Assembly (NCBI GenBank): GCA_022841545.1
Contig: JALHRF010000002.1
Span: forward strand, 1 to 64,000
Length of the DNA stretch: 64,000 nt
From: Bauldia sp.
GTDB lineage: Bacteria > Pseudomonadota > Alphaproteobacteria > Rhizobiales > Kaistiaceae
Reading direction: 5' to 3'
Position 1 is the first letter of the stretch. Each line of letters starts with the position of its first letter. Shown here piece by piece: positions 3,274 to 14,532 of this stretch. A model generated the notes under the pieces. That model did not search any database, was not told where the DNA came from, and saw only the letters and a list, made by a program, of their open reading frames with translations. The position numbers were made by a program, and so were the translations under genes.

Positions 3274-6200
3274 ATGCGTCACGAGGCCGTCACCCTCGGC
3301 GACAAGTACGATCTTTCCAAGAACCGCATTCTCCTTACGGGGACGCAGGCGGTGGTGCGGCTCGCACTGACGCAGCGCGCCCGCGACCGGCGGATGGGCA
3401 AGCGCACGGCGGGCTATGTCACCGGCTATCGCGGGTCGCCGCTCGGCGGCCTCGACCAGCAGTTCGAGCGGGCGGCGGACCTGCTCAAGCCGGCCGACAT
3501 CCTGTTCCAGCCGGCGGTCAACGAGGACCTCGCGGCGACCGCGCTGTGGGGCTCGCAGCAGGCGGAGATGCGCGGCGAGGGACGCACCGACGGCGTCTTC
3601 GGGATGTGGTACGGCAAGGGACCGGGCGCCGACCGGGCGGGCGATGCCCTGAAGCACGCCAACCTCGCCGGGACCGCGCCCTGGGGCGGCGTCGTGGCGT
3701 TGATGGGCGACGACCACACCTGCGAATCCTCCACCACGGCGCACCAGTCCGAGTATGCGTTCGTCGACGCGCAGATTCCGATCCTGTCCCCGGCCGGGGT
3801 CCAGGAGATCATCGATTACGGGCTGATGGGCTTCGCGCTGTCCCGCTTCGCGGGGCTCTGGGTCGGGCTCAAATGCGTCAAGGACACGGTCGAATCGACC
3901 GCCACCATCGACGGCTCGCTCGACCGCATGGCCAGCGTCATCCCCGGCGCGTTCCGCATGCCGCCCGGCGGCCTCAACATCCGTCCGGGCGACCACCCGA
4001 ATGCGCAGGAGGAACGGCTCCACGAATACAAAATCCCGGCCGCGCTCGCCTTCCTCCGCGTCAACGTTCCCGACCGGCTGGTGCTCGCCGGCGGCCGCAC
4101 GCCGCGCATCGGCATCATCACGGCGGGCAAGAGCTATCTCGACGTCCTCCAGGCTCTCGACGAACTGGGTATCGACGAGGGGATCGCCGCTGATTTCGGC
4201 ATCAAGCTCCTCAAGCTCGCCTGCACCTGGCCGATCGAGCCGGGAACCGTGCGCCACTTCGCCGAGCGGATCGAGAAGATCATCATCGTCGAGGAGAAGC
4301 GGGGGCTGATCGAGGGGCAGGTCAAGGAGATCCTCTACGGCACGCGGAACCAGCCGGCGATCGTTGGCAAGCGCGACGAGACCGGCAACTGGCTGCTCCC
4401 CTCCAAGGGCGCCCTCGACGCCAACCGCATCGCCATCGCCATCGGGGAGCGGGTGCTCGAGAAGACCTCGCATCGGGCGCTGGAGGCGCGGGTGACGGCG
4501 CTGAAGCAGGCCGAGGAAGTCCTCGCCGAGGGCACCGACATCGCCACCCGCGGCTACTATTTCTGCGCCGGCTGCCCCTATAACAGCGGTACCGTGGTGC
4601 CCGAAGGCTCCCGCGCCTATGCCGGCATCGGCTGCCACTACATGGTCCAGCGCATGGATCGGCAGACCGAGGGCTACACCCAGATGGGCGCCGAGGGCGC
4701 CAACTGGGTGGGGGAGGCGCCGTTCTCGACCCGCGGTCACGTCTTCCAGAACATCGGCGACGGCACCTACAACCATTCTGGCAGCCTCGCGATCCGGGCC
4801 GCGGCGATTTCCGGCGTCAACATCACCTACCGCATCTACTACAATGACGCGGTGGCGCTGACCGGCGGGCAGAAGGTCGACGGCGGCATGACCGTCGACC
4901 AGATCGCCCGCCAGGTGGCGGCCGAAGGGGCGAGCCGCGTGGTGGTCGTGGCCGAGGAGCCGGACCGCTATCCCAAGACCGCGATCTGGCCTCCGGGCAC
5001 CAAGATTCACTCGCGCGAAAAACTCGACGCGGTGCAGAAGGAACTGGCCGAGGTCGGCGGCCTGTCGGTGCTGATCTACGATCAGGTCTGTGCGGCGGAG
5101 AAGCGCCGGCGACGGAAGCGCGGCACCTTTCCGGACCCCGATGCGCGGATCGTGATCAACGAGCTGGTGTGCGAAGGCTGTGGCGATTGCGGCGTGCAGT
5201 CGAACTGCGTGGCGCTGGTGCCGGTCGAGACCGAGTTCGGACGGAAGCGCGCCGTCGACCAGTCTTCCTGCAACAAGGACACCTCCTGCATCAAGGGCTT
5301 CTGCCCGAGCTTCGTCACCGTGCATGGAGCGAAGCGCCACAAGCGCTCGTCCGAGACCGACTTCGTGCTGCCGGAGATCGCGCCGCCGGACCTGATGGAC
5401 GGCTTTGCGATGCTGATCACCGGGGTGGGCGGCACCGGCGTCGTGACCATCGGCGCGATCGTCGCCATGGCCGCGCATGTCGAGGGCAAGGGCGCCGGCG
5501 TGATCGACATGGCCGGGCTCGCCCAGAAGGGAGGCCCGGTAACGAGCCACGTTCGCATCGCGCCGACTCCGGGAAGCGTCAAGGCGATCCGGGTCGCAGC
5601 GGGCGGAGCCGATACCATCCTCGCCTGCGACATGGTGGTGGCGGGCACCGCGAAGTCGCTCGCCGCGATCCACCCCAACCGAACCCGCGTCTTCGTCAAT
5701 ACTCACGAGACCTATCCGGGCGAGTTCACCCGCGATCCTGACATGACGCTTCCCACCCGGCGTCTCCTCGCGGCCATCTCGGGACGGACGGGGGTTGAGG
5801 GGACGCGCGCCATCGAGGCGACCGAGATCGCAACGGCGCTCCTCGGCGACGCGATCGCCAGCAACATGTTCATGCTCGGCCTCGCCTGGCAGTCGGGGGC
5901 AATCCCACTCGCGTCGGCCTCGATCGAGCGGGCAATCGAGTTGAACGACGTGGATGTCGCGATGAACAAGGCGGCCTTCGCCTGGGGGCGCCGCGCCTCG
6001 ATCGAGCCGGACAGAGTCGCGCAGATCGCGGCCGGGCTTAGCGGAAGAACGCAGCCCGCCGTGCTGACTGTCGACGCGCTCGTCGAGCGGCGGGCCGGGT
6101 TCCTCGCCGCCTATCAGGACGAGGGTTATGCCCGGCGCTACAGCGCGGCGGTGCAGCGCATCCGGGAGGCGGAGTATCGCGCCGCCCAGGGGCGCGACAA

Positions 6201-6729
6201 CCTTTCCCAGGCGGTGGCTGTCAACCTGTTCAGGCTGATGGCGATCAAGGACGAGTACGAGGTGGCGCGGCTCTACACCGACGGCTCGTTCGAGAAGCAG
6301 CTCGGCCGCGAGTTCGCGTCCTGGGGCAAGATCGACTTCCACCTCGCGCCGCCGATCCTTGCCCGCGAGGACCGGGCGACGGGACGGCCGGCCAAGAAGA
6401 GATACGGGCCATGGATGATGCGCGGATTGCGTACGCTCGCGGCGATGCGACGGTTCCGCGGAACGGCGCTCGATCCGTTCCGCTACTCCGCCGACCGCAA
6501 GCTCGAGCGTCGGCTGCTCGCCGACTACGAGGAGACGCTGGCGCTGATCGGCGCCAGTCTCCGCCCCGACAACTACCTCGCCGCCGTGGCGCTCGCCGCC
6601 TATCCCGAGAAGATCCGCGGCTACGGGCCGCTCAAGGCGGAGAGTGCGGCGAAGGCCACGGCGCTCGCGACCGAGCGCGAGGGCGTTTTCCTTGCCGGGC
6701 CGCCGCGGCTGGCCCACGCGGCGGAGTAG
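3274..6729 (+). CDS. Indolepyruvate:ferredoxin oxidoreductase family protein, fused alpha-beta chain
   Basis: A 1151-aa single-chain TPP- and Fe-S-dependent 2-oxoacid oxidoreductase of the indolepyruvate/arylpyruvate class, in which the iorA and iorB parts are fused. It should decarboxylate an aryl- or branched 2-oxoacid to acyl-CoA with electrons passed to ferredoxin. Order: pyrimidine-binding N domain ('GYVTGYRGSPLGGLDQQ', ~45-60), TPP-binding region ('GDGTYNHSGSLAIRAA', ~500), a ferredoxin-like Cys cluster (CEGCGDC...C, then CNKDTSCIKGFC; ~633-682), the gamma domain ('GVGGTGVVTIGAIVAM', ~718), and a C-terminal helical region. All Cys ligands expected for the family appear present. The start ATG follows GGAG (GCGGAGTAGCGTC). 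Standalone; the substrate is not determined by context. Confidence 0.93.
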   Translation: MRHEAVTLGDKYDLSKNRILLTGTQAVVRLALTQRARDRRMGKRTAGYVTGYRGSPLGGLDQQFERAADLLKPADILFQPAVNEDLAATALWGSQQAEMRGEGRTDGVFGMWYGKGPGADRAGDALKHANLAGTAPWGGVVALMGDDHTCESSTTAHQSEYAFVDAQIPILSPAGVQEIIDYGLMGFALSRFAGLWVGLKCVKDTVESTATIDGSLDRMASVIPGAFRMPPGGLNIRPGDHPNAQEERLHEYKIPAALAFLRVNVPDRLVLAGGRTPRIGIITAGKSYLDVLQALDELGIDEGIAADFGIKLLKLACTWPIEPGTVRHFAERIEKIIIVEEKRGLIEGQVKEILYGTRNQPAIVGKRDETGNWLLPSKGALDANRIAIAIGERVLEKTSHRALEARVTALKQAEEVLAEGTDIATRGYYFCAGCPYNSGTVVPEGSRAYAGIGCHYMVQRMDRQTEGYTQMGAEGANWVGEAPFSTRGHVFQNIGDGTYNHSGSLAIRAAAISGVNITYRIYYNDAVALTGGQKVDGGMTVDQIARQVAAEGASRVVVVAEEPDRYPKTAIWPPGTKIHSREKLDAVQKELAEVGGLSVLIYDQVCAAEKRRRRKRGTFPDPDARIVINELVCEGCGDCGVQSNCVALVPVETEFGRKRAVDQSSCNKDTSCIKGFCPSFVTVHGAKRHKRSSETDFVLPEIAPPDLMDGFAMLITGVGGTGVVTIGAIVAMAAHVEGKGAGVIDMAGLAQKGGPVTSHVRIAPTPGSVKAIRVAAGGADTILACDMVVAGTAKSLAAIHPNRTRVFVNTHETYPGEFTRDPDMTLPTRRLLAAISGRTGVEGTRAIEATEIATALLGDAIASNMFMLGLAWQSGAIPLASASIERAIELNDVDVAMNKAAFAWGRRASIEPDRVAQIAAGLSGRTQPAVLTVDALVERRAGFLAAYQDEGYARRYSAAVQRIREAEYRAAQGRDNLSQAVAVNLFRLMAIKDEYEVARLYTDGSFEKQLGREFASWGKIDFHLAPPILAREDRATGRPAKKRYGPWMMRGLRTLAAMRRFRGTALDPFRYSADRKLERRLLADYEETLALIGASLRPDNYLAAVALAAYPEKIRGYGPLKAESAAKATALATEREGVFLAGPPRLAHAAE

Positions 6730-6764
6730 GGCATTGGCGCTGACTTTGCTTCCGACGCCGCTTG

Positions 6765-8357
6765 TCAGGTCCCGCCGAGCGAGAAGATCTCATCATAGGT
6801 GTCGCGGCGGTGGGTGTAGCTCCACGAGCCGTCGGCCTCGACGAGAATGCGGGCCGGCCGCGGGAACGAGTTGGCGTTTGCCGCGAAGAACGTCGGCGAA
6901 TAGGCCCCGGTCGCGGCGATCATCAGGATGTCGCCGCGCACCGGCTTCCGCTGCAGGCTGACCTTGAGCCGCGACAGCATGTCGGCGTTGAAGCAGAGAT
7001 TGCCGGCGACGAAGGTGTCGAACGGCTCCGGGTCGCGCCGGTTAGGCTCGGTGGCGACCGCCCATTTCATCGCCGGCAGGCCGACGATGGCTTCCGCGTA
7101 GAAGACGACGCCCATTTCCATGGCCAGCATCGGGTGAATGCCGGCGATCTGCTTGACGAAGGCCGTGCGGAGGAAGGTCATGCCGGCGTCGCCGACGATC
7201 GACCGGCCCGGCTCGACCACCAGAGTCGGCGTGCCGGCGCCAGCGAGCGCGTCGAGCGTCTTCATCGTCGCGCCGTTGACGGTGACTTCGCCGAGGAGGA
7301 TTGCCTCGAGCATCTTCTCCTTGGGGTACTTCGCCCAGAACAGCTCGCCCTGCCAGGTCTTGCCGGGCATGCCATCCGGCTCCATCCCCAAGGCGCCGAC
7401 GGCGTTGTCCCACAGCCAGATCTTGCTCGGGTCGCCGTTCTTTGCCGCGATGAAGCCGTCGCGGATACGGGTGACGAGCGTGTCCCATTCCGCCTCGGTG
7501 AGATAGGAGACCGGATAGCCGCCGCCGATATTGACGATCTCGAAGGCGTGGCCCTCCTCTTTGAGGAGCGCGCCGAGTTCCAGCATCTTGCCGAGCACGG
7601 CGAGATAGGCGTTGAGGTCGGTGATCTGGCTGCCGATATGGGTGTGGAAGCCGAGCACCCTGACCGGCATGTCCTTGAGCCGCGGCAGCAGCGCCGGGAT
7701 CTCGTCGATGTTGATGCCGAACTTGGTCCAGAGGCCGGCGGTGAAGATGGCGCTCGCGGTCACTGCGCCGAGGTCGTAGCCGGAGAGCCGGAGCAGAGCG
7801 CGCGGCGTTTTCTGCGCGGCGGCGGCGAGCGTCGCCACGCGTTCGAGTTCGGGGATGCTGTCGATCACGATCAGCATGTCATGCGCGATCGCGGCCTCGA
7901 TGACGCCGTCGTCCTTGGCATTGCCGTTGAGGTCGAGGAGGTGGCCGGGAATGCCCGCCTCGAGCGCCGCCTTCATTTCGTAGGGCGATGCGACGTCGAT
8001 CCCGGCGCCCTCCTCGCCGATCAGCTTGAAGATGGTGGGATGGGTGTCGGCTTTGCCGGCGAAGCGGACTTCGCCCTTGGGGTAGTGCGCCTTGAAGACG
8101 TCGAGGAAGCCGCGGAGGTTGGCGCGGAGTTGTTTGCCGGAGGAAACCTGGAGCGGCAGGTCGAAGGTGTCCGTCCACCACGAGAGCGGCCGGCCGGCGA
8201 GGACCAGTTCGTCGCCGGTGCCGTCGAGAAAGTCAGTGAAGTCGGCGGCGCCGCCGCCGGCCTCCTGGGCCATGGCGAGAACCGAAGGGTCGGCCACGGC
8301 GGCGACCGCCATGGTTACTGCTGAGGTCTTCAGAAAATCGCGTCGCGAAACAGACAT
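6765..8357 (-). CDS. Tat-exported fold-III PLP decarboxylase (diaminopimelate decarboxylase-like)
   Basis: A 530-aa protein with a clean Tat signal: 'SRRDFLK' at residues 4-10, a short hydrophobic stretch and a likely cut after 'LAMA' (~30). The rest is a full-length alanine racemase-barrel PLP decarboxylase of the DapDC/ODC type. Lys102 in 'FAGKADTHP' matches the PLP lysine of YAxKAN; 'HIGSQ', 'NIGGGYP' (phosphate loop), 'VEPGRSIVGDAG' and 'GAYSPTFFAANANSFPRP' follow in family order. The substrate motif of true LysA (CESGD) reads 'CFNAD' here: Cys and Asp stay, Glu becomes Phe. The fold and cofactor site look intact, but the substrate is probably not meso-diaminopimelate, and the enzyme should work in the periplasm. 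It lies downstream of a 5'-nucleotidase-type gene on the same strand, 148 bases apart. Confidence 0.85.
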   Translation of the reverse strand: MSVSRRDFLKTSAVTMAVAAVADPSVLAMAQEAGGGAADFTDFLDGTGDELVLAGRPLSWWTDTFDLPLQVSSGKQLRANLRGFLDVFKAHYPKGEVRFAGKADTHPTIFKLIGEEGAGIDVASPYEMKAALEAGIPGHLLDLNGNAKDDGVIEAAIAHDMLIVIDSIPELERVATLAAAAQKTPRALLRLSGYDLGAVTASAIFTAGLWTKFGINIDEIPALLPRLKDMPVRVLGFHTHIGSQITDLNAYLAVLGKMLELGALLKEEGHAFEIVNIGGGYPVSYLTEAEWDTLVTRIRDGFIAAKNGDPSKIWLWDNAVGALGMEPDGMPGKTWQGELFWAKYPKEKMLEAILLGEVTVNGATMKTLDALAGAGTPTLVVEPGRSIVGDAGMTFLRTAFVKQIAGIHPMLAMEMGVVFYAEAIVGLPAMKWAVATEPNRRDPEPFDTFVAGNLCFNADMLSRLKVSLQRKPVRGDILMIAATGAYSPTFFAANANSFPRPARILVEADGSWSYTHRRDTYDEIFSLGGT

Positions 8358-8505: not shown

Positions 8506-10002
8506 CTATTCGATGACGATGCGGCCCTCGGGCGCGGGGGCGATGGTGCCTTTCGCGGCGATGTAGTCGATCACCTGCGAAGCCATCAGCGTCGCGTCGA
8601 CCGGGTCGATCAGCGGCTTGCCCGCCTTGAACACGGCATAGCCGTCGCCGCCGCCGGCCATGTAGTCGTTGGTGGCGAGCGTATAGATCCTGGCATCGTC
8701 GAGCGGCGCTCCGCCCACCGAGACCGAGACGACGCGCTGCCCGGGTGGGCGGCCGGGACTGATCGTCACCGCCAGGCCGGAGACCTGGGGGAAGCGACCG
8801 GCGCCGGTCTCGATCTGGCTGAAGCCGTTCTCGAGCGCCGCGCGGATATCGGCGCCGGTGATCTCGAACTTCACCGTCTTGTTGCCGAAGGGGAGCTCGG
8901 CGAAGATGTCGCCGCGGGTCAGCCTGGTCCCGGCCGGGTATTCCCGGTCGGCGCGGATGCCGCCGCCATTGGTGATGGCGACGTCTGCGCCGACCGCCTC
9001 GCGCATGGCGTCGGTGATCAGGTTGCCGATCGCCGCCTCCTCGCCGCGCACCGTGGCGCGCCGGCTGTCGAGCGGCGTTTCGGTCACGCCGATCTCGACC
9101 TTGAGTTCGGCGTCGAGCTTGTCGGTATAGCTCGCGACCAGCGCTGCGATCTCGGCATCGGGATCGACCGTGGCTGTGTCGACGATACGGAAGGCGGGCC
9201 ACCAGTCGACCGAGACCGCGCCGTCTTCCACTTCCCTGGTGAGCGTGATCTCGGTGACGACGGCGAAATTGCCTTGCGCCTCAGATTCGGTCAGCGCGAC
9301 CTTGCCGTTGAAGTAGGCGAGGAGGTGCTCGTCGTGGCCCGAGAGAATGAGGTCGGCGGCACCGGCCCGGACCAGGCCAAGATCGACGTCGATCGGCGTG
9401 TGCACAACGGCGACGACGAAATCGGCGCCCTCCTCGCGGAGCGCGGCGGCGCGGGCGATGCCGGTCTCGACCGACGGCGCGAAGCTCAAGTCTCCGGGGC
9501 TTGAGACGACCGGGGTATCCTCGGTGGTGAGCCCGTAGAAGCCGACCTTGACGCCATTCACGTCGACGATCCGGGTATCGACGGTGTTCTTCGGCGCCGT
9601 GCCGTCGGCTTCGAGGATGTTGCTCGACACGATCGGGAAGGTTGCCTCGGCGACGCGCTTGCGGAACACCTCCGGGCCGAAGTCGAATTCGTGGTTGCCC
9701 GGCACCATCGCGTCGACGCTCATCTGGTTCAGGATCTCGATGATGTGGACGCCCTTATCGATGCCCGAGAGCAGCGACGGCGAGATCGTGTCACCGGAAT
9801 GGATGAAGAAGGTTGGCCCACCCTTGGCCCGTTCGGCCTTGACCACCGCCGCGAGGCGGGCGAAGCCGCCGCGGCCGTCCTCCTCCTCCATGCGGTCGAT
9901 ATCGTTGGTCTGGACGAAGGTGAGGGTGACGGTCTCGGCCAGCGCCGGCCCGGCGAGGGCAAGCGCTGCGGTGAAGGTCAGGGCGCGAAGGGAACGGTGC
10001 AT
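8506..10002 (-). CDS. 5'-nucleotidase/UshA-family metallophosphatase
   Basis: A 498-aa exported hydrolase with a Sec signal peptide (cut near 'GPALA-ET', ~22), an N-terminal calcineurin-like metallophosphatase domain and a C-terminal 5'-nucleotidase substrate domain ('NLITDAMREAVGADVAITNGGGIRAD'). Metal motifs: 'SGDT' (~69-72) and 'GNHEFDFG' (102-109) are standard. The first motif reads 'TNDIDR' rather than NDxH, and the GHxH motif reads 'GHDEH', so two usual His ligands look replaced. Related proteins in this group show variants, so activity is still likely; the substrate (nucleotide, sugar nucleotide or cyclic phosphodiester) is unknown. A 'NDYMAGGGDGY' motif marks the substrate pocket. Confidence 0.88.
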   Translation of the reverse strand: MHRSLRALTFTAALALAGPALAETVTLTFVQTNDIDRMEEEDGRGGFARLAAVVKAERAKGGPTFFIHSGDTISPSLLSGIDKGVHIIEILNQMSVDAMVPGNHEFDFGPEVFRKRVAEATFPIVSSNILEADGTAPKNTVDTRIVDVNGVKVGFYGLTTEDTPVVSSPGDLSFAPSVETGIARAAALREEGADFVVAVVHTPIDVDLGLVRAGAADLILSGHDEHLLAYFNGKVALTESEAQGNFAVVTEITLTREVEDGAVSVDWWPAFRIVDTATVDPDAEIAALVASYTDKLDAELKVEIGVTETPLDSRRATVRGEEAAIGNLITDAMREAVGADVAITNGGGIRADREYPAGTRLTRGDIFAELPFGNKTVKFEITGADIRAALENGFSQIETGAGRFPQVSGLAVTISPGRPPGQRVVSVSVGGAPLDDARIYTLATNDYMAGGGDGYAVFKAGKPLIDPVDATLMASQVIDYIAAKGTIAPAPEGRIVIE

Positions 10003-10069
10003 TGGGCCTCTCCGTTCGGTCGTGGGGGACGGCGGATTGCACCACTAGCGGCGCATCGTGACAAGGCGG

Positions 10070-10987
10070 TTACGTTGCAGGGGCCCCATCCCCCCGCTGC
10101 CCCTCCGGCAGCACGACGTCGAGGAAGCGCGCTGCCGGACCGCTGAGCCGTGAGCCGCGACGCCAGACGACCCCGACCCGGACTGGTGGCAGGGTCTCGA
10201 CAGTCGGCCGCGCCTCGATGCGGTCGCCTTCGAGCGACCACGGCCGGTAGACGAGGTCGGGAAGCACGGCGACGCCGGCGCCGGTCGCAACCAGGCTTCG
10301 CACCGCCTCGACAGAACGGGTGCGGAAGGCGATCTCCGGCCGTAGCCCCCGCTCGCGCCAGAGGGCCTCGGCCGATTCCTGGATCTCGTCGACGGCGAGC
10401 ACGATCTGCGGCTCGTTCGCCACGTCGGCGAGGCTCACGGCTTCGCGGGCGGCGAGGGCGTGGCCGAGCGGCAGCCACAGGCGCTGCGACGACTGCTCGA
10501 TGATCCGCGTTTCGAGCGCCGCCGATTCCCGGAGTCGCGACAGCACCATTACCGCGACGTCGAGTTCGCCATTGATGAGGAGATGCTCGAGGTATTCGCC
10601 GATGTCCTCGAAGGCGGCGACGGTGACGCCGGGATAGGCGCGGCGGAAGCGGCCGAGCAGGTCGGCGAGGATATATCCCGCAACCAGGGACGAGGCGCCG
10701 AGGTGGAGCTCGCCGGTGAGCGCGTCCTCTTCGGCGCGGGTCTGGCGCGCATCGGCGACCGCCGAAAGGATGCGGCCGGCGTGGCGGAGGAAGAGCTGGC
10801 CGCGGTGGGTCAGCGCCACGCCGCGGCCGGAGCGTTCGAGGAGCGCTGCGCCGAGGTCGTCCTCGAGCGCCTTCACCGCCTCGGTGACGGCCGACTGCGA
10901 GATCGAGAGATGCCGCGCCGCCCCGGAGATCGACCCCGCCTCGGCGACGGCGACGAAGTAGCGGACATGGCGGAGGGAAAAGCTCAT
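10070..10987 (-). CDS. LysR-family transcriptional regulator
   Basis: A 305-aa LysR regulator: winged HTH at residues ~5-62 ('GSISGAARHLSISQSAVTEAVKALE') and a periplasmic-binding-like effector domain from ~90. The start at 10987 (MSFSLRHVRYF) gives the normal family length; the ORF-track start at 11257 would run into the divergent neighbour. The 109-base gap to the divergent aldo/keto reductase gene at 11097 suggests that it controls that gene, as is common for LysR pairs. The effector is unknown. Confidence 0.92.
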   Translation of the reverse strand: MSFSLRHVRYFVAVAEAGSISGAARHLSISQSAVTEAVKALEDDLGAALLERSGRGVALTHRGQLFLRHAGRILSAVADARQTRAEEDALTGELHLGASSLVAGYILADLLGRFRRAYPGVTVAAFEDIGEYLEHLLINGELDVAVMVLSRLRESAALETRIIEQSSQRLWLPLGHALAAREAVSLADVANEPQIVLAVDEIQESAEALWRERGLRPEIAFRTRSVEAVRSLVATGAGVAVLPDLVYRPWSLEGDRIEARPTVETLPPVRVGVVWRRGSRLSGPAARFLDVVLPEGQRGDGAPAT

Positions 10988-12897: not shown

Positions 12898-14532
12898 ATG
12901 GCCGTCAGTGCAAACCGACTGGAACTCCTGCAGATCGCCGACGCGGTCGCGCGCGAGAAGTCGATCGACCGGATGATCGTGGTCACCGCCATGGAGGACG
13001 CGATCCAGAAGGCTGCGCGCTCGCGCTACGGGCAGGAAACCGACGTCCGCGCCGAGATCAACCCCAAGACCGGCGAGATCAAGCTTCAGCGCCTCTTGAA
13101 GGTGGTCGACCAGATCGAGAACACCGCGACCGACATCCTGGTTGAGGATGCGCGGCGGAGGAACCCGGCCGCCCAGCCCGGCGACTACATCGCGGAGCCG
13201 CTGCCGCCGATGGATTTCGGCCGCATCGCCGCCCAGTCGGCCAAGCAGGTCATCGTCCAGAAGGTGCGCGAGGCCGAGCGCGACCGCCAGTACGAGGAGT
13301 TCAAGGATCGGATCGGCGAGATCGTCAACGGCCAGGTCAAGCGGGTCGAGTACGGCAACGTCATCGTCGACCTCGGCCGGGGCGAGGGCATCGTGCGCCG
13401 CGACGAGTTGATCCCGCGCGAGACCTTCCGTTACGGCGACCGCATCCGCGCCTTCATCTACGATGTGCGGCGCGAGCAGCGTGGCCCGCAGATTTTCCTC
13501 TCCCGCACGCACCCTCAGTTCATGACCAAGCTGTTCGCGCAGGAAGTGCCGGAGATCTATGACGGGATCATCGAGGTGCGCTCGGTCGCCCGCGACCCTG
13601 GCAGCCGCGCCAAGATCGCCGTGATCTCGCGCGATTCCTCGATCGACCCGGTCGGCGCCTGCGTCGGCATGCGTGGCAGCCGCGTCCAGGCGGTGGTTAA
13701 CGAGCTCCAGGGCGAGAAGATCGACATCATCCCGTGGTCGGGCGATGCCGCGACCTTCATCGTCAATGCGCTGCAGCCGGCCGAGGTCGCCAAGGTGGTG
13801 CTCGACGAGGATGCCGAGCGGATCGAGGTGGTGGTCCCCGACGACCAGCTCTCGCTCGCCATCGGCCGCCGCGGCCAGAACGTCCGCCTCGCCTCGCAGC
13901 TCACCGGCTGGGACATCGACATCCTCACCGAGCAGGAGGAATCCGAGCGGCGCCAGAAAGAGTTCCAGGTGCGCTCGCAGCTCTTCATCGAGGCGCTCGA
14001 CGTTGACGAGGTGGTCGGCCAGCTCCTCGCCTCCGAGGGCTTCGCCAGCGTCGAGGAGATCGCCTACATCGAGCTCGAGGACCTCGCCTCGATCGAGGGC
14101 TTCGACGACGATACCGCCACCGAACTCCAGAACCGCGCCCGCGACTATCTGGGGCGGATCGAGGCCGAACAGGACGAGGAGCGGAAGGCGCTCGGCGTCG
14201 AGGACGCGCTCAAGGAGATTCCCGGCGTCAACACCGCGGCCCTGGTCGCGCTGGGCAAGGCCGAGATCAGGACGATCGAGGATTTTGCCGGGCTCGTCCC
14301 CGATGATCTCATCGGCTATGTGGAACGGAAGGACGGCGAGTCGACCCGCACCCCGGGCGCGCTCGAGGGTTTCGACCTTTCCCGCGCCGACGCCGAAGCG
14401 ATGATCATGCAGGCCCGCATCAAGGCCGGGTGGATCACCCAGGAAGACCTCGACCGCGTTGCCGCCGAGGCGGCGGTCGCGGCGGACGCCGAAGCCGAGG
14501 GCGCATCGCCCTCGGCCCCGGCGACGGCATAA
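12898..14532 (+). CDS. nusA: Transcription termination/antitermination factor NusA
   Basis: A 544-aa NusA that binds RNA polymerase and nascent RNA. Order: NusA N-domain (~1-125), S1 domain ('VNGQVKRVEYGNVIVDLG', ~138-200), KH1 ('VGACVGMRGSRVQAV') and KH2 ('SLAIGRRGQNVRLASQLTGWDID'), then two helix-hairpin-helix-like C-terminal repeats ('EGFASVEEIAYI' and 'IRTIEDFAGL') as in long proteobacterial NusA, ending in an Ala/Glu-rich tail. The ATG follows GGGAGCAACTTA. It lies between rimP and ylxR as usual. Confidence 0.97.
   Translation: MAVSANRLELLQIADAVAREKSIDRMIVVTAMEDAIQKAARSRYGQETDVRAEINPKTGEIKLQRLLKVVDQIENTATDILVEDARRRNPAAQPGDYIAEPLPPMDFGRIAAQSAKQVIVQKVREAERDRQYEEFKDRIGEIVNGQVKRVEYGNVIVDLGRGEGIVRRDELIPRETFRYGDRIRAFIYDVRREQRGPQIFLSRTHPQFMTKLFAQEVPEIYDGIIEVRSVARDPGSRAKIAVISRDSSIDPVGACVGMRGSRVQAVVNELQGEKIDIIPWSGDAATFIVNALQPAEVAKVVLDEDAERIEVVVPDDQLSLAIGRRGQNVRLASQLTGWDIDILTEQEESERRQKEFQVRSQLFIEALDVDEVVGQLLASEGFASVEEIAYIELEDLASIEGFDDDTATELQNRARDYLGRIEAEQDEERKALGVEDALKEIPGVNTAALVALGKAEIRTIEDFAGLVPDDLIGYVERKDGESTRTPGALEGFDLSRADAEAMIMQARIKAGWITQEDLDRVAAEAAVAADAEAEGASPSAPATA

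Follow-up and report, generated by a model that had tools for sequence, protein, structure and literature searches.

The window analysed here is a stretch of 64,000 nucleotides from Bauldia sp. (contig JALHRF010000002.1). The gene under study is read from the reverse strand and lies between a nucleotidase gene upstream and a convergent oxidoreductase gene downstream (Table 1).

Table 1. Positions in the window of the decarboxylase gene, its features and its two neighbours (residues are numbered from the start of the decarboxylase; Tm, T. maritima DAP decarboxylase; L006, locus of the orthologue)
Feature	Position	Strand	Basis or remark
Tat-signal fold-III PLP decarboxylase-like protein	6765..8357	-	ATG start, ORF of 530 aa; orthologue in L006, 90%; dN/dS 0.14
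Predicted Tat signal peptide, residues 1-30, AXA site A28-M29-A30	8268..8357	-	PF10518 and TIGR01409 above cut-off; both Arg and AXA kept in orthologue
Twin-arginine motif SRRDFLK, residues 4-10	8328..8348	-	Sequence; identical in L006
PLP-binding barrel, Orn_Arg_deC_N (PF02784), residues 87-289	7491..8099	-	4.1e-33
K102, Schiff-base lysine	8052..8054	-	Invariant column across LysA, Y4yA and window proteins
Long GGG-EPGR stretch, residues 289-376, with YP...L..IL partly common to Y4yA	7230..7493	-	Spacing 104
EPGR, residues 382-385 (pyridine-nitrogen Glu; Arg)	7203..7214	-	E382 = Tm E246, R385 = Tm R249
Specificity segment, residues 412-434	7056..7124	-	A421 or E422 where LysA has Arg (Tm R285)
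C455-F456-N457-A458-D459, replacing CESGD	6981..6995	-	C455 = Tm C314, F456 = Tm E315
Y486, PLP phosphate tyrosine of GAY	6900..6902	-	Alignment column
UshA-like 5'-nucleotidase with Sec-like signal, upstream neighbour	8506..10002	-	Also in Bauldia genomes without the decarboxylase
Indolepyruvate ferredoxin oxidoreductase family, convergent downstream neighbour	3274..6729	+	Also in Bauldia genomes without the decarboxylase

The gene and its neighbourhood

An orthologue that is 90% identical and flanked by the same neighbours occurs in a Bauldia sp. MAG (L006, 5421-7013). Of the 209 substitutions that separate the two copies, 141 are at third codon positions. The dN/dS of the decarboxylase gene is 0.137, below the values of the upstream nucleotidase (0.263) and the downstream oxidoreductase (0.215); the gene is under strong purifying selection. 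Because of this orthologue in the same setting, the excess at third codon positions and the low dN/dS, we do not consider the gene to be a product of chance. An antisense ORF of 520 aa (6762-8324, forward strand) spans nearly the whole gene, and we rejected it as a second gene because it is a shadow frame produced by the high GC of the coding sequence. The composition of the decarboxylase gene (GC 66%, GC3 90%) resembles that of its neighbours and gives no support for a foreign origin.

The gap of 148 bases between the decarboxylase and the nucleotidase contains no terminator-like or sigma-70-like match, and the two genes may be co-transcribed as an operon. Because both neighbours occur in genomes that do not carry the decarboxylase, no conserved pathway partner was found among them. 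In another Bauldia genome, G015, other genes lie between the nucleotidase and the oxidoreductase, among them one for an RTX-repeat protein and one for a D-amino-acid-oxidase-like protein, and in G581 the only occupant of the interval is a small ORF that looks secreted. The cargo of this site appears to vary between genomes. The oxidase of G015 (DAO family; locus L018, G015:C7:163000-181000, 13192-14412, reverse strand) carries RRAFVTTGALALAGG near its start, with an RR motif that appears Tat-like by eye, and the Pfam Tat model gives no match. A different exported-looking amino-acid enzyme is thus found in the spot that the decarboxylase occupies in the window. The RTX calcium-binding repeat protein of the same variable interval lies at 9650-10456 (reverse strand) of L018. 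In the Bauldia MAG, a cytochrome c with a SoxA/TsdA-type domain is encoded close to the orthologue (L006, 1830-2708, forward strand).

The decarboxylase is rare among the searched genomes. It is present in two of the five genomes of the genus and in none of 23 other genomes of the family. No further member turned up among the 199 and 398 genomes searched at the level of the order, the 385 at class level or the 399 at phylum level; these samples overlap, and the large searches score only the top few candidates per genome. An exact-peptide scan of one genome per species across 85,462 species, which sees close relatives only, returned the Bauldia sp. MAG as the sole relative. When the C-terminal half was searched against 399 Pseudomonadota genomes, the matches beyond the gene itself were weak (29-38%, E 1e-9 to 1e-12) and of the size typical for LysA C-termini. 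All phage and plasmid matches were below 60% identity and were LysA-like or Y4yA, and the viral contigs searched by protein and HIGSQ DNA patterns and by tblastn encoded no relative.

The Tat signal

The protein begins with MSVSRRDFLKTSAVTMAVAAVADPSVLAMAQEA. This N-terminus scores 26.1 bits with PF10518 TAT_signal (cut-off 22.7) and 21.2 bits with TIGR01409 (NCBIfam cut-off 16.7), and the orthologue also exceeds both cut-offs (22.8 and 21.1 bits, respectively). The Tat targeting signal proposed by the sequence-only reading is therefore supported in both orthologues. Alignments to solved relatives start no earlier than residue 40, which makes residues 1 to approximately 40 an extra N-terminal piece. 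Of the differences between the two orthologues in codons 1-35, 10 are synonymous and 6 nonsynonymous, a pattern that translated sequence would be expected to give; SRRDFLK and an AXA site are retained in both. A twin-arginine signal above the model cut-off and a TatC encoded in the genome, as a Tat substrate would need, are both present.

In view of the narrow distribution, it could be argued that the Tat motif is unused and the enzyme cytoplasmic, or that the protein is no longer catalytic. However, the signal is conserved in the orthologue despite synonymous turnover in those very codons, all of the catalytic residues are kept and purifying selection is strong; we therefore regard this explanation as very unlikely.

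PvdN and PtaA of pseudomonads are PLP-bound enzymes that Tat exports folded with their cofactor (PMC6206403), and the earlier description of the present case as a little-described activity can accordingly be upheld for fold III but not for Tat-exported PLP enzymes in general. On the strength of the signal and this precedent, we infer that the window protein would likewise be exported with its PLP cofactor. The two pseudomonad enzymes differ from it in belonging to another fold family (aminotransferase-type, the fold of PvdN) and in their target, which is the glutamate side chain of pyoverdine.

Fold and active site

The protein was initially described as a full fold-III PLP decarboxylase with Lys102 and EPGR intact, and the match to Orn_Arg_deC_N and the aligned residues bear this out. 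It combines a barrel and a C-terminal sheet domain with the active-site set of fold-III decarboxylases: the invariant columns K102, G278-280, E382-R385, C455 and Y486 are kept and D459 is also intact, and the alignment confirms both CFNAD (residues 455-459) and Y486. The C-terminal part (approximately 378-525) aligns with solved DAP decarboxylases (2p3e). The Pfam model of the C-terminal domain, PF00278, gives no match on the window protein, which indicates that this domain is divergent. AlphaFold run on the two-sequence alignment of the window protein and its orthologue gave a pLDDT of 34.

A decarboxylase and a racemase had both been suggested. An enzyme of the alanine-racemase type, acting as a racemase or epimerase in the periplasm, would share the fold superfamily, and Ala_racemase_N scores 23.6 bits, which is under its cut-off of 24.1. 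However, an Arg faces the pyridine nitrogen in alanine racemase, whereas decarboxylases have a Glu in this position and a Cys as the proton donor, and the window protein has Glu382, within EPGR, together with Cys455. This catalytic set favours a decarboxylase over a racemase, and we consider the racemase highly improbable. The suggestion that polyamine precursors are the substrate is also less supported because there is no ODC-type Asp after the Cys.

Relation to LysA and the DAP pocket

The best NCBIfam model for the window protein is lysA. The likeness to LysA (TIGR01048) includes the two-domain fold III, the Lys, HIGSQ, GGG, EPGR, Cys, Asp and Tyr signatures, and the top solved-structure matches. 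However, the window protein scores 202.6 bits with TIGR01048, 95 bits below the cut-off of 297.9, and differs in its CFNAD, its lack of the IRP Arg, its long insert, its Tat signal and its position outside the LysA clades. The housekeeping LysA is encoded on the same contig just past the window (C2:64199-65476), has CETGD and scores 465.9 bits, and the genome carries two other fold-III decarboxylases with CDS.D motifs. On the tests made, including a phylogeny that did not place it inside a LysA clade, the window protein is not the housekeeping LysA, as the sequence-only reading had anticipated. A LysA-like protein from another alphaproteobacterium (L007, 777-2255, reverse strand) scores 314 bits, above the LysA cut-off, with CDSID in place of CESGD, and its gene adjoins a hydantoinase-like gene; this observation suggests that the LysA model also gathers other decarboxylases.

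In the T. maritima DAP decarboxylase, Arg249 and Arg285 bind the distal carboxylate and Glu315 reads the distal amine (PMC8277567). Of these, E315 maps to F456, R249 is retained as R385, and R285 aligns to A421, or to E422 in another alignment; D318 corresponds to D459, and E246 and C314 are given in Table 1. The loss of the CESGD Glu, which had been read from the sequence, is thus borne out, and one Arg of the distal-carboxylate site is lost as well, in the window protein and in its orthologue. Replacement of Glu315 by Phe reduces the DAP activity of the T. maritima enzyme from 675 to 36 mU/mg in vitro (approximately 5% left), and D-phenylalanine and D-norleucine become substrates at approximately 4 mU/mg (PMC8277567). 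In light of these effects, F456 is a naturally occurring counterpart of a specificity switch that was introduced by engineering. Because other pocket residues have also changed, the substrate cannot be read from F456. We consider it unlikely, although conceivable, that the protein represents a new subfamily of periplasmic fold-III decarboxylases acting on hydrophobic or aromatic D-amino acids through a natural Glu-to-Phe switch.

These comparisons also bear on whether the protein is an additional, exported DAP decarboxylase whose periplasmic substrate is meso-DAP of the cell wall. The solved structures that match best are DAP decarboxylases (2p3e, 3.7e-33), lysA is the best model, R385 is kept, and the E315F mutants retain weak DAP activity (PMC8277567). 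However, a score so far under the LysA cut-off and the loss of a Glu and an Arg of the DAP site in both orthologues make this explanation quite improbable.

The D-ornithine/D-lysine decarboxylase DokD is also a fold-III enzyme with a related barrel (73-82 bits in PDB searches). However, the window protein scores 108 with the NCBIfam model of DokD, far under the cut-off of 700, and the DokD substrates, as we take from the name of the enzyme, bear a distal amine.

Phylogenetic position

In a maximum likelihood tree of 32 rows, the window protein sits on a long branch (1.6 changes per column) outside the three LysA clades, which exclude it with support of at least 100/99. It lies beside Y4yA with support of 91/96, or 85/70 when the insert columns are removed. 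AU tests did not reject alternative sister positions with Gram-positive LysA (p 0.21), the isolated LysA-like L007 (0.24), E. coli-type LysA (0.09), alphaproteobacterial LysA (0.054) or ODC (0.053). We consider a separate deep branch to be firm and kinship with Y4yA to be moderately supported by the sequences compared.

The window protein has 104 aa from GGG to EPGR and the Y4yA relatives have 74-96, against 36-61 for the remaining decarboxylases in the comparison. This length and the YP...L..IL pattern agree with Y4yA kinship, as does the lack, in most cases, of an acid directly after the catalytic Cys, whereas the retained HIGSQ speaks against it, the GSQ being NGY or SGY in Y4yA. Furthermore, the identity to Y4yA is approximately 23-27%, the Y4yA copies compared have no N-terminal extension, and their genes adjoin SbnA-, cysteine-synthase- and ornithine-cyclodeaminase-like genes. 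The role of y4yA of S. fredii NGR234 is not known (PMC3973906).

From this kinship, the protein could be a Y4yA-type enzyme that gained export in this lineage and whose substrate is an unusual amino acid in a secondary-metabolite pathway. The sister position, the long insert, the residue after the Cys and the kind of genes that accompany Y4yA favour this explanation. However, no such genes flank the window gene, GSQ is kept, the branches are long, and sister positions with LysA or ODC stand at AU p 0.05-0.24; we regard it as unlikely.

Proposed function

We consider it fairly likely that the window protein is a Tat-exported fold-III PLP alpha-decarboxylase that acts in the periplasm on an amino acid other than DAP, or on a conjugate of one, and yields an amine. 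This reading is based on the two Tat models, the TatC gene, the intact catalytic set, F456, A421/E422, the separate LysA, the tree and the dN/dS of 0.14. Given the export tag and the rebuilt substrate pocket, the enzyme probably works outside the cytoplasm on an amino acid other than DAP.

According to this proposal, the protein would fold around PLP in the cytoplasm, and Tat would carry the folded enzyme with its cofactor to the periplasm. There, K102 would hold the PLP and E382 would keep the ring nitrogen protonated; the substrate would lose its alpha-carboxylate, and C455 from the partner subunit would return a proton. This scheme of a PLP Lys, a pyridine-nitrogen Glu and a Cys proton donor is standard for the decarboxylase family. 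The product would be an amine derived from a non-DAP amino acid or an amino-acid conjugate in the periplasm. Dimerisation and a hydrophobic or uncharged substrate side chain next to F456 are putative elements of the same scheme.

The fold is known and so is the kind of export, and it is their combination and the lineage that are new. Few enzymes are known for PLP chemistry in the periplasm, and no fold-III decarboxylase was found among them in the open-access literature searched. If confirmed, this case would mean that another PLP fold is moved through Tat, and it would offer a natural experiment in retuning of the DAP pocket, directly comparable with the E315 mutants of T. maritima.
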